From Lentilactobacillus senioris (GTDB lineage: Bacteria > Bacillota > Bacilli > Lactobacillales > Lactobacillaceae), in NCBI RefSeq assembly GCF_026798195.1, contig NZ_JAPQEZ010000003.1, forward strand, positions 1 through 64,000: DNA of 64,000 bases, read 5' to 3'. This document shows positions 3,144 through 62,093 of this stretch, piece after piece (the stretch's first letter is position 1; every line of letters starts with the position of its first letter). The notes beneath the pieces were generated by a model that had not been told where the DNA came from, ran no database searches, and worked only from the letters and a program-made list of their open reading frames with translations. The position numbers and the translations under genes were made by a program.

Positions 3144-3557
3144 ATGGTAAAAAATGAAAATGTTAAAAATGGAATTATCTTTCCAGTGGGTGAACCTAAC
3201 GTAGAGTACGGCAAATACTTTGTGGGCCAAAGTTATTTACAGGGATTAGTCAATGATCCTACCGTTAATGTGGGAGTGGGCAACGTAACTTTTGAACCGG
3301 GTTGTCGCAACAATTGGCACATTCATCATGATGGTTATCAAATTTTATTAGTTACCGGTGGTGAAGGTTGGTATCAAGAAGCAGGGCAACCTGCTCAACT
3401 TCTGCATCCGGGTGACGTGATTGTGACCCATGATTGTGTGAAACACTGGCACGGAGCGACTAAGGACAGTTGGTTTGAACATATCGCAATTACTGCTTGT
3501 ACTCCGGAATGGTTGGAACCGGTTAGCGATGAAGAATACGATCAATTGGAGGGCTAA
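3144..3557 (+). CDS. Cupin domain protein
   Basis: A 137-residue single-domain cupin. The metal-binding motif 1 is seen as HIHHDGYQ with a following G, and motif 2 contains PGDVIVTHDCVKHWHG, giving the usual His/Gln ligands. The reading frame is open back into merR, but the sensible start is ATG 3144 after a GGGAG site just downstream of the merR stop. Cupin plus CMD-like protein pairs occur in many lactobacilli next to reductases. The reaction is not known; a role in handling reactive carbonyls is inferred from context. Confidence 0.85.
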   Translation: MVKNENVKNGIIFPVGEPNVEYGKYFVGQSYLQGLVNDPTVNVGVGNVTFEPGCRNNWHIHHDGYQILLVTGGEGWYQEAGQPAQLLHPGDVIVTHDCVKHWHGATKDSWFEHIAITACTPEWLEPVSDEEYDQLEG

Positions 3558-56838: not shown

Positions 56839-57480
56839 ATGATTAATCAACTTTTTTGGGATTTTGATGGAACGTTATTTGATACTTATCCAGCAATGGT
56901 TAAAGCATTTCATTTAACCTTAATGGATTTAAACGTAGATGAGATTGAAATTGATGACCACTCTATTTACACCACAATGCGTCAACAATCACTAGGAACG
57001 GCGTTTAATCAATACGGAGCTGAATATGGGCTTAATTTGGACCAATTAAAGTCCACTTATTACAACCATGAAGTCCAAGAAGTGGCCAATGCTAAACCAA
57101 TTTCTGGGGTAGCAGAAATTTTACAACAAGCCATTGATAATGGTGGAGCTAATTATTTATTAACCCATCGAGATGATCAAGCTAAACAATTATTGATCGA
57201 CAACGGCTTTAAGGATCAATTCGTGGATGCTGTTACGGCTGATATGCCGTTTCCTAGAAAGCCTAAGCCGGATTCATTAAACTATTTAATCGATAAACAT
57301 CATGTAGATCGGGCAACGGCAATGATGATTGGAGACCGGGAATTGGATGTCTTAGCAGGGCACAATGCCAATATTGCTGCTAGTTTATTTGATCCGGATG
57401 GGTTAATCGTTCAAACTGGTGATCCAGAAATTCGGGTGGCTGCTATGCCAGAATTAAAATTATGGTTAGCTAAAAACTAA
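56839..57480 (+). CDS. HAD-family phosphatase, phosphoglycolate-phosphatase-like
   Basis: A 213-residue HAD hydrolase with a C1-type cap. Motif I is WDFDGTLFDT, motif II is LLTHRDD, motif III is the Lys in PRKPKPDS and motif IV is MIGDRELDVLAG. The substrate is unknown; similarity is to Gph/pyrophosphatase-type members. AGGAGA precedes the ATG. It ends the prmA-rsmE-rel-dtd cluster before a bidirectional terminator. Confidence 0.9.
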   Translation: MINQLFWDFDGTLFDTYPAMVKAFHLTLMDLNVDEIEIDDHSIYTTMRQQSLGTAFNQYGAEYGLNLDQLKSTYYNHEVQEVANAKPISGVAEILQQAIDNGGANYLLTHRDDQAKQLLIDNGFKDQFVDAVTADMPFPRKPKPDSLNYLIDKHHVDRATAMMIGDRELDVLAGHNANIAASLFDPDGLIVQTGDPEIRVAAMPELKLWLAKN

Positions 57481-57481
57481 T

Positions 57482-57516
57482 AAAAAGACCTTTAATGATA
57501 AATTAAAGGTCTTTTT
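57482..57516. terminator. Bidirectional terminator
   Basis: A perfect 15-bp stem (57482-57496 / 57502-57516) with a GATAA loop, A tract at left and T tract at right, between convergent genes. Confidence 0.93.
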
Positions 57517-57517
57517 A

Positions 57518-58363
57518 TTATGCTTGATTAGCAAAGTATTTAGTTAATCCCTTAGTCACTGAAGAGGCAATTTGATTTTGGTAATTTACTGACTTAATTG
57601 CCGTAAAATTAGAATTAGAATTGATATACCCAGTTTCTAAAAGTACTGATGGTACGTTGGTATCTCTAATAACTAGGAAGTCCCCAAATTGTACTCCTCG
57701 ATTAGGAAGTGGCAAAGAACTTCTAAATTGATCGTTAATATCCGTAGCGATTTGTTTAGACCTACCAGGATGGTAGTAATAACTAGTCACTCCACTAGCA
57801 GTGTTAGGCTCATCAGATGAATCTAAATGAAAACTAATAAACGCATCTGCATAGTTGGTTTCAGCAATTTCTGGACGTTTATTTAAGGAAACGGTACTAT
57901 CAGAATCACGAGTTATTATTACTCGTGCACCAGTAGCCCTTAATTGTTGTGCTACTTTTTTAGCTATTTGCAAGGTATAAGTTTGTTCTTGCTTGCCAGT
58001 ATTAGAAAGGGCTCCGGTGTCGACACCACCATGTCCAGGATCGATAACGATGGTGGCTTCAGCAATTTTACGAGGATTGGTAATTTGGGTATCGTTAACC
58101 AGCCACGAAGCTACCCAGCCAACTTGCCGGTGATTAGCAATTACTTTTAACCAATTGTTTTGACGTTTAATTACTTGAAGGTGAGCTCCCTTTTTAACGG
58201 TCCCCTTAACGGAATAGGAAACGGACGGTCCAGATCGAACATTTAGCTCAGCAACTTTGACGGTAACGGAGTTGGAGAAAAAAATGGTTAATAAAATTGC
58301 AAATGTACCGATTGCAATTATTCCAGCAATTATCCAACCCCGGTTTTGTACAATTCTTTTCAC
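57518..58363 (-). CDS. N-acetylmuramoyl-L-alanine amidase with SH3 domain
   Basis: A 281-residue envelope hydrolase. An N-terminal membrane anchor or uncleaved signal (about residues 9-30) is followed by a bacterial SH3 domain (VAELNVRSGPSVSYSV... WVASWLVND, about 32-92) and an Amidase_3 zinc catalytic domain (TIVIDPGHGGVDTGA, then FISFHLDSS, and the Glu in LLETGYINS). It cuts the amide between MurNAc and L-Ala in peptidoglycan. GTG start after GGGGGA. Confidence 0.94.
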   Translation of the reverse strand: MKRIVQNRGWIIAGIIAIGTFAILLTIFFSNSVTVKVAELNVRSGPSVSYSVKGTVKKGAHLQVIKRQNNWLKVIANHRQVGWVASWLVNDTQITNPRKIAEATIVIDPGHGGVDTGALSNTGKQEQTYTLQIAKKVAQQLRATGARVIITRDSDSTVSLNKRPEIAETNYADAFISFHLDSSDEPNTASGVTSYYYHPGRSKQIATDINDQFRSSLPLPNRGVQFGDFLVIRDTNVPSVLLETGYINSNSNFTAIKSVNYQNQIASSVTKGLTKYFANQA

Positions 58364-58439
58364 TAAAATCCCCCAATAAAAATTATAATTGCAATTATTA
58401 TACCGCAGTTTTTTATCAAGGGCTGTAATTGGCTGGATC

Positions 58440-58578
58440 TTGACTTTTTTTTATTTTTCAATTAGGCTAAATGCTGTTAGTAAACGATTAATCGTTCATC
58501 AACGGATGATTTTTAAAAACTTGCGCTTACCACTTTTAATCAAAAGTGGTTTTTTATTGAAAAATTGGGAGGTTTGAA
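58440..58578 (+). promoter_or_regulatory. hisS promoter and leader
   Basis: TTGACT (58440-58445) with 17-bp spacing to a poor -10 (TAGGCT). The leader then holds a perfect 14-bp palindrome AACGATTAATCGTT (58483-58496), a small TCATC/GATGA hairpin and an intrinsic terminator directly before the SD. No T-box AGGGTGGnACCGCG core is present. It looks like an attenuator of unknown type. Confidence 0.5.
58529..58556 (+). terminator. Intrinsic terminator in the hisS leader
   Basis: ACCACTTTT (58529-58537) and AAAAGTGGT (58542-58550) close an AATC loop and run into TTTTT. It ends just 12 nt before the hisS SD, leaving no room for a later promoter. Confidence 0.88.
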
Positions 58579-59868
58579 ATGAAATTTCAACGGCCAAAGG
58601 GAACAGCAGATATCTTACCTGGAGAATCACAAAAATGGAACTATATTGAAGAAACAGCACGGAGCTTATTTCAAGACTACCGTTATTCAGAAATAAGAAC
58701 ACCATTATTTGAAAATTTTGAAGTTTTTTCTAGAACGTCTGGAGATACGTCCGACGTGGTTACTAAAGAAATGTACGATTTCCACGACAAAGGTGACCGG
58801 CATATTAGTTTACGTCCAGAAGGAACGGCGGGAGTAGTTAGAGCCTTTGTAGAAAATAAACTGTATGGTCCGGAATTTCAAAAACCATATAAAGTGTTTT
58901 ACATGGGCTCCATGTTTCGATATGAACGGCCACAATCTGGTCGGTTACGTGAATTTCACCAAATTGGGGTAGAGGCCTTTGGTAGTGATGCTTCTGCATT
59001 GGATGTAGAAGTAATTGCCATGGCTATGGATTTGCTAACTCGATTCGGCTTACAAAACTTACACTTAGTAATCAATACTTTGGGAGATCAAGAAAGTCGT
59101 GATGCCTATCGAAAAGCATTGATTGACTACTTAGAACCTCATTTTGATGAACTAAGTGAAGATTCTAAAGTTCGTTTGCACAAAAATCCATTACGGGTAC
59201 TTGATAGTAAAGACCCTAAGGACCAGGTATTTGTTGCTGATGCACCTTCCATTTTAGATTATTTAACTCCAGAAGCCGTAACGCACTTTGAAGAAGTTAA
59301 GCAACTACTTACGGACTTAAATATTGCTTATGAAGTGGACTCAACTATGGTTCGAGGATTAGATTATTATAACCATACTATTTTTGAAGTAATGACTAGC
59401 TTGGACGGCTCAGCCGATTTAACTACTATTTGTGCTGGTGGTCGTTATAATGGTTTGGTAGAAGAATTAGGCGGTCCAGAAGTTTCTGGTGTCGGTTTTG
59501 GATTAGGGATTGAACGCTTATTATTGTTGATGGAAGCTCAACATGTCACTATTCCCGACTTAAACGAATTAACTGCCTACGTAGTGGGAATTGGCGAAGA
59601 AACTTCTGCCACCACTTTAAAAATCGTGCAAGCATTAAGACATAATGATATTACTGCCGAGCGCGATTATTTGAATCGTAAACCTAAAGCTCAATTTAAG
59701 TCAGCAAATAAAGATAATGCTAAGTTTACAATTACCATTGGAGATAACGAATTGGCCAATCAAACTGCCAATGTTAAGTCCATGACTACTGGTGAAGAAG
59801 TAGCAATTCCTCAAGCTGAAATTATGACTGATTTTGCTAAAGCTGTGTCTACGTATTTTGATCTTTAA
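58579..59868 (+). CDS. hisS: Histidyl-tRNA synthetase
   Basis: A 429-residue class II synthetase. [12 protein letters not shown] is motif 2 region, [16 protein letters not shown] the conserved loop, histidine-specific motifs are VRGLDYYN and GRYNGL, and GFGLGIERL is motif 3. GGGAGG precedes the ATG. In many lactobacilli aspS follows; here a terminator and an unrelated YitT gene follow instead. Its leader carries a terminator, suggesting regulated read-through. Confidence 0.97.
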
Positions 59869-59869
59869 T

Positions 59870-59896
59870 AAAAGGCCGGTAAACGGCCTTTTTTAT
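59870..59896 (+). terminator. Terminator after hisS
   Basis: AAAAGGCCG and CGGCCTTTT enclose GTAAA; six T close it. Confidence 0.93.
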
Positions 59897-59963
59897 TTTG
59901 GTGACTGGTTAAGCAATTTGATATACTTAGATAGAAAATATAGACAAGGTTAGGAAGCAAATA

Positions 59964-60914: not shown

Positions 60915-62093
60915 ATGAATAAATTGAAAATGGTGAAAAAAGTGAAAGTCATTTATCTGTGGTTGATTCGACTAGTTTCCTTGTTTAATAGTTGGCGACC
61001 AAAGAAAAAAGTCATCTACTTAATGAGTTTTGACAATAATGTTGGGTTTATTAAACGCTTAGCTCAGCGTTTACCGCAACGGACGCCCATTGTGGTGTTG
61101 TATCGAAAAGAAACTGAAGCAGCCGCTACTGATTTGGCTGCATTTGGTATTCAAACAATTGAGTTTCGGGATGATTTATATTTTGTTACCCAATTAGTAC
61201 CACTATTGGCTAGTGCTAAATTGATTTTTTGCGATAATTATTACGCCTTTTTAGGGGGCTTTGTTCATTCAAAGAAAACTAGAATTGTTCAATTGTGGCA
61301 TGCAGCCGGTGCCATTAAGAAATTTGGATGGGAAGATCCAACCACCCAAAAGAGAACGGCAGTGGCTAAACGAAGATTTCAGCTAGTTTATAATCAATTT
61401 GATGAATACGTGGTTAGTTCTCAAGCGATGGGGACGGTATTTGAAGAAAGTTATCATGAGCCACAAGCTAAGATTAGATTGTTAGGTTATCCACGCTCAG
61501 ATCGGTATTTAAATGCAGAGTGGTGTAAGAGAGCTCAACGGCACGTTTACCAAGTGGCTCCTGATCTAAAAGGAAAACGGGTAATTTTATATGCGCCAAC
61601 GTACCGGGATGATAAAAAAATTAAAATTCCGGTGGGAGTGGCTGATGCTTTAAGTGCTGATCCCAATGCTATTGTGATTGTTAAATTGCATCCTTTATTA
61701 CAATCATTGAGTCAACGACAAGCAGATGATAATAGCAAAATTAGGTCTTACGATCAATTATCAACTAGTGAGTTGTTAACCGTGACTGATACATTAGTAA
61801 CGGATTATTCATCAGTAGCTTTTGATTTTTCATTGCTGCCTAATGCTAAAACGGCAATATTTTATATGTTTGACCTGGATAGCTACCAAAAGGCTCCAGG
61901 GATTCAAGATGATTTTTTAACTTGGTTGCCAACTCCGCCCGTAACTACTGTAGCTGAGTTAGCTGAGGTTATTAAAGCTAATCAAACTACCGATTTTACG
62001 ACTTTTAATCAAAAGTGGAATACTTACAACGATGGTAATGCCACGCATCGAGTAATTGATTACTATACTGAGTATTTAAATTTAAAACGTTAA
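60915..62093 (+). CDS. CDP-glycerol glycerophosphotransferase family protein, TagB-like
   Basis: A 392-residue membrane-associated transferase of the TagB/TagF family. Conserved blocks are VQLWHAAGAIKKFGW, GYPRSDRYL, ILYAPTYRDD, IVKLHP and LVTDYSSVAFDFS. Its short length, lacking the long N-terminal region of TagF, suits a TagB primase adding the first glycerol phosphate to the lipid-linked disaccharide. The start is unsure: ATG 60915 lacks an SD and would have a ~10-nt leader; ATG 60930 is another option. Confidence 0.87.
   Translation: MNKLKMVKKVKVIYLWLIRLVSLFNSWRPKKKVIYLMSFDNNVGFIKRLAQRLPQRTPIVVLYRKETEAAATDLAAFGIQTIEFRDDLYFVTQLVPLLASAKLIFCDNYYAFLGGFVHSKKTRIVQLWHAAGAIKKFGWEDPTTQKRTAVAKRRFQLVYNQFDEYVVSSQAMGTVFEESYHEPQAKIRLLGYPRSDRYLNAEWCKRAQRHVYQVAPDLKGKRVILYAPTYRDDKKIKIPVGVADALSADPNAIVIVKLHPLLQSLSQRQADDNSKIRSYDQLSTSELLTVTDTLVTDYSSVAFDFSLLPNAKTAIFYMFDLDSYQKAPGIQDDFLTWLPTPPVTTVAELAEVIKANQTTDFTTFNQKWNTYNDGNATHRVIDYYTEYLNLKR

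Follow-up and report, generated by a model that had tools for sequence, protein, structure and literature searches.

What governs hisS, the gene for histidine--tRNA ligase, at a locus where the usual T-box is missing? In this bacterial family hisS is indeed often T-box controlled, as the preliminary description of the locus had stated: of 80 named loci, 78 carry the T-box core, whose consensus is AGGGTGGNACCGCG, upstream of hisS with one or two mismatches, and only those of L. kribbianus and L. senioris do not. In the window, the whole 64-kb stretch of DNA analysed here, hisS is preceded by a short leader with a hairpin and a T run.

The features of the locus are collected in the table. Between the two convergent genes upstream, a 19-bp hairpin with a T run occurs on the minus strand at 57478-57520. 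The HisS protein is 96–98% identical to that of L. senioris DSM 24302 and 77–78% identical to that of L. kribbianus, and the window genome is that of a Lentilactobacillus near L. senioris; a HisS tree that left out L. senioris pairs the window with L. kribbianus as its sister (99/98), in a region of the tree with poor resolution. The L. senioris hisS (L088, ~3290-3340) looks split where the assembly has an N run. L. kribbianus carries a second hisS (L164, G002:C1), near an ORF that we take to resemble the histidine decarboxylase gene hdcA.

Features of the hisS locus and of the foreign aspS (positions in the window unless a contig is given)
Feature	Coordinates	Strand	Remarks
HAD-like gene (by eye)	56839-57480	+	upstream of the divergent gene
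Divergent amidase-like gene	57518-58363	-	best models below their cut-offs
hisS promoter, TTGACT-N17-TAGGCT	58440-58468	+	inherited from T-box operon
Leader RNA before terminator	58473-58528	+	start inferred from -10 box; no significant fold
Perfect 14-nt palindrome, AACGATTAATCGTT	58483-58496	.	not conserved
Predicted hairpin	58490-58511	+	7 of 8 leader substitutions relative to L. senioris within 58489-58509
Intrinsic terminator	58529-58555	+	9-bp stem, 4-nt loop, T run
Shine-Dalgarno site, GGGAGG	58567-58572	+	
hisS, histidine--tRNA ligase	58579-59868	+	TIGR00442, 505 bits; only copy found in genome
Gap between hisS and YitT-like gene	59869-59963	+	place of aspS in relatives; terminator at 59870-59892
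Foreign aspS with own T-box, window genome	G000:C34:24362-26439 (L131)		

The absence of a T-box at hisS, as noted in the preliminary description, held in every search. At gathering scores Rfam gave no match in the whole window, the T-box family RF00230 included. At E 10, the interval 58300-58700 returned six weak matches with no T-box among them; five were to eukaryotic or viral families and one to an enterobacterial sRNA, and all were rejected as far below their gathering scores. A T-box covariance model run at E 0.01 found no match in the hisS leaders L018, L048 and L088, and in the same run found a T-box at hisS of the relatives L053 and L050 and, in the window genome (L131) and L. kribbianus (L130), before aspS. 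The best core match at hisS has six mismatches in the window, L. senioris and L. kribbianus alike. The hisS leader has no specifier loop: ~140 nt are missing between promoter and gene, and no T-box model matches. With E up to 0.001, the window genome yields 17 T-box matches, and hisS has none of these. One of the T-box model matches (L010, G000:C23:263170-263339) scores 80 bits, yet the core pattern gave no GGTGGNACC there. At another locus (L008 1501-1850, G000:C34:195268-195603) a polar amino acid ABC permease gene follows a tandem T-box; by eye, the specifier there appears to be CAC (His), and sensing of tRNA-His may thus persist on uptake.

Comparison with relatives indicates what was lost. 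Our survey relied on a core pattern, allowing three mismatches within 450 nt of the gene, and not on the covariance model, and would overlook T-boxes whose cores are unusual; the core of L194 is 431 nt away from the gene. Among 24 Lentilactobacillus genomes, the hisS T-box is present in 21 and missing from three: the window genome, L. senioris and L. kribbianus, hereafter the clade. A TTGAC[AT]-N17-box promoter occurs upstream of hisS in all 24. From the -10 box to the hisS start the distance is 235–254 nt where a T-box is present (21 genomes) and 103–110 nt where it is missing (three). The shared promoter and the shorter spacing imply that the promoter is old and that ~140 nt between it and hisS are gone; in relatives, this stretch carries the stems that read the tRNA, together with the T-box core and antiterminator. 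The window promoter differs from that of L. senioris at 0 of 29 positions. With the transcription start placed from this promoter, the leader would be ~103 nt long, in keeping with the earlier estimate of about 100 nt.

The strong hairpin and T run already described before the Shine-Dalgarno site prove to be an intrinsic terminator by the usual features, a stable hairpin with a T run directly after it. The hairpin, ACCACTTTT-AATC-AAAAGTGGT, spans 58529-58550 and the T run 58550-58555; 11 nt separate the T run from the Shine-Dalgarno site, and the hisS ATG is at 58579. It folds at -9.3 kcal/mol, with a z of -4.3 against dinucleotide shuffles, 1 of 500 of which folded as well. The terminator stands at the same position throughout the clade (z -4.3, -3.4 and -3.8 in the window, L. 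senioris and L. kribbianus, respectively), and in L. kribbianus the stem letters differ from those of the other two. Because the upstream gene is divergent, a plus-strand terminator here ends no adjacent upstream gene and belongs to the hisS leader. Elsewhere in the window, 23 nt at 61996-62018, towards the 3′ end of an ORF (60915-62093), match the hisS terminator region at 96%, an identical ACTTTTAATCAAAAGTGG included; this likeness may be chance or reflect a copied piece.

The clade terminator, at -9.0, -9.0 and -8.7 kcal/mol, is weaker than those of all 126 T-box leaders computed, none of which falls short of -11.7; the two sides were computed by nearly the same procedure, with a T-run pattern slightly stricter for the three clade leaders. 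The segments of up to 49 nt make the hairpin of T-box leaders look stronger than it is by itself, and take in a second small helix in the L. kribbianus value. By a simpler measure, the energies are -7.1, -7.1 and -8.7 in the clade against -13.3 and -13.2 in two T-box leaders. By eye, 14 nt, mostly T, of the 3′ arm and tail of the L. kribbianus terminator match the same part of the T-box terminator of L. laojiaonis. Position and such short matches suggest that the hisS terminator is homologous to the T-box terminator. In the fold of the full-length L. kribbianus leader, the tested terminator register has pair probabilities near 0.01, and the hairpin prevails only if the RNA is taken no further than the T run. 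Folding predicted no antiterminator in the window or L. senioris, the 5′ arm staying unpaired when the 3′ arm was barred from pairing.

Upstream of the terminator, little structure is evident. In all three clade members this stretch folds no better than shuffles (z -0.7, -0.1 and +0.1), and the window and L. senioris have a predicted fold in common there. The 86-nt leader 58470-58555 reaches a z of -2.85 and 58470-58580 only -1.32; since the pre-terminator part is shuffle-like, the signal of the whole leader came from the terminator. A conserved aptamer-like domain before the terminator was rejected on the same ground. The perfect palindrome and the short hairpin (CATC-AACG-GATG, 58498-58509) remarked on in the preliminary description both exist; neither is conserved in the nearest relative, the palindrome site reading AACGATTAATTGCC in L. 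senioris, and the window contains nine perfect 14-nt palindromes. By eye, 58469-58578 has no run of His codons, only one CAT and one CAC, 33 nt apart.

The leader differs from that of L. senioris at 8 of 109 positions, seven of them in one 21-nt hairpin stretch, which leaves one substitution in 88 positions outside it. Fourfold sites of five genes differ by 37–56% between the same two genomes; three other nearby intergenic stretches differ by 3–9% (2/75, 2/37 and 8/94) and the amidase-side stretch by 16%. Conservation of the leader is therefore high, yet not special among intergenic stretches here.

The clade also departs from its relatives downstream of hisS. The gene order is hisS-aspS-yitT in the two T-box relatives L053 and L050 and hisS-yitT in the window, L. 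senioris and L. kribbianus, where aspS lies elsewhere. At 77 of the 80 named loci aspS directly follows hisS; of the remaining three, one breaks off too early to judge. Clade AspS proteins share 83–99% identity with one another and 61% with that of L. laojiaonis. In a tree of 42 AspS sequences, rooted at the midpoint, the clade and G073, itself a long branch, stand apart from the other 38 (100/100), and eight other Lentilactobacillus AspS form a group of their own. By identity, tree and gene order, the clade aspS is of foreign lineage, the native aspS having been lost from behind hisS. The foreign aspS is preceded by a T-box core in all three clade members, and Rfam matches a T-box there in the two tested, the window genome and L. 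kribbianus.

Absence of the hisS T-box tends to go with absence of an adjoining aspS more widely. Across 60 genomes of the order, a core precedes 49 of the 52 hisS genes with aspS directly behind and 0 of 8 without it (Fisher p 6e-8, relatedness uncorrected, several of the eight sharing a genus); G031, G041 and G047 have aspS and lack the core. In a further, hand-picked set, kept apart from this count, G073 and seven g43 genomes, with HisS of a distant type, have neither T-box nor adjoining aspS, and G085 and G074 have aspS without a T-box. Three genomes of genus g42 (G070, G106 and G184; L216, L217 and L218) retain the hisS T-box without an adjoining aspS, so its loss is not automatic; three others of that genus have both. 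The association is a tendency, with exceptions in both directions. A T-box re-specialised for His at hisS without aspS was considered and rejected, the g42 cases having by eye two GAC specifiers and one changed.

The specifiers indicate which tRNA the intact leader reads. The automatic pick is GAC in 100 of 126 distinct hisS-aspS T-box leaders, as GACAC in 77; in the 23 where AC does not follow, CAC cannot be offered. The 26 picks other than GAC include many that look like mis-picks. The plain GACACTTTTT pattern is matched by 34 of 127 leaders, most Lentilactobacillus among them. GACAC mainly meets tRNA-Asp, in the view of Gutierrez-Preciado et al. 2009 as cited in PMC5313534.

With the T-box promoter kept, a terminator standing where that of the T-box would be, and the tRNA-reading parts and antiterminator gone, the strongly degenerate T-box leader is the one of three readings in the preliminary description that gained support; its other two, a different attenuator and a short RNA, drew little positive evidence. 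We consider it probable, at roughly 0.6, that the hisS leader is a remnant of the hisS-aspS T-box leader, in which promoter and weakened terminator form a fixed, leaky attenuator with no sensor. Sequence comparison shows a promoter that was retained, a sensor that was lost, a terminator kept and weakened, and a replaced aspS. The old T-box would have read mainly tRNA-Asp; once aspS was replaced it would no longer have paid, and so would have decayed. At the terminator that remains, some polymerases would stop and release an ~80-nt RNA, and the rest would read through into hisS, without tRNA sensing. The quiet leader outside the hairpin counts against this remnant reading, as it shows more constraint than dead remains need, though intergenic stretches nearby are about as quiet, and retention of the terminator in three species could mean regulated termination.

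These two points bear on a new conditional attenuator, in which a protein, a metabolite or a translation signal took over the decision on read-through after the T-box was lost. The terminator persists although the L. kribbianus stem letters differ, the leader ends are strongly conserved between the window and L. senioris, and these two have a predicted pre-terminator fold in common; yet that stretch folds like shuffles, no competing antiterminator is predicted in either, and the leader has no His-codon run by eye and no Rfam family. We regard such a switch as unlikely, and its more specific form as quite unlikely: an attenuator built from T-box ruins in which, tRNA sensing having gone with the aspS replacement, another signal sets HisRS, and the first 20 nt and the pre-terminator stretch are the working parts. 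A T-box that still reads a tRNA is the least probable proposal of all, as six core mismatches, the lack of an Rfam match and ~140 missing nucleotides outweigh its descent from a T-box leader.

The remaining proposals assign the parts differently. The terminator might shield hisS from upstream read-through, with the hisS promoter inside or after it, and a same-strand gene does lie beyond the divergent gene at 56839-57480; the conserved promoter, however, precedes the terminator, and a consensus scan, which also misses this conserved promoter with its weak -10 box, finds no plus-strand promoter in 58470-58578, which makes shielding very doubtful. Promoter and terminator together define an ~80-nt transcript that might be a functional short RNA, but any attenuated leader yields one likewise, no significant fold exists beyond the terminator, and the apical hairpin differs between sister species; we find this marginally more doubtful still. 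The perfect palindrome sits just after the inferred transcription start, where an operator of a DNA-binding regulator could lie. Its break in L. senioris and the nine such palindromes in the window tell against that role, and by eye 58483-58496 misfits the 20-bp HisR palindrome consensus cacTTTAnnnnnnTAAAgtg given in PMC9413887, which also has HisR absent from most Lactobacillales. Lacking conservation in L. senioris and a fit to HisR, the operator was rejected as highly improbable.

Among known systems, the hisS-aspS T-box leader (RF00230) is closest, with the same gene, the same promoter and a terminator likewise before the Shine-Dalgarno site; the window leader differs in having no specifier stem, core or antiterminator, in being ~140 nt shorter, in its weaker terminator and in the absence of aspS downstream. 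The hisS of the histidine decarboxylase cluster of L. parabuchneri, as presented in PMC5313534, also has a Lentilactobacillus leader ending in a terminator, but is an additional hisS gained by that species, and its T-box is intact, with CAC (His) as specifier. Attenuators that consist of a plain intrinsic terminator resemble the window in placing a terminator between promoter and gene with no visible switch, and differ in that the T-box origin of the hisS leader can be traced. By eye, the window hisS lacks the leader ORF with a His-codon run that marks a his-type leader-peptide attenuator. In the open-access literature (for GACAC, among the matches listed), no title or abstract opening describes such a loss of the hisS T-box.

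Arguments over the tRNA read by the hisS-aspS T-box have turned on the overlapping GACAC specifier, and tRNA-Asp was proposed, as cited in PMC5313534. In the clade, aspS has been swapped and hisS retained, the hisS T-box is gone and the new aspS has its own T-box, a natural experiment that favours tRNA-Asp. The locus also shows a path of T-box decay, in which the sensor is deleted, the promoter retained and the terminator weakened. As a consequence, HisRS in this clade should no longer rise on aspartate starvation.
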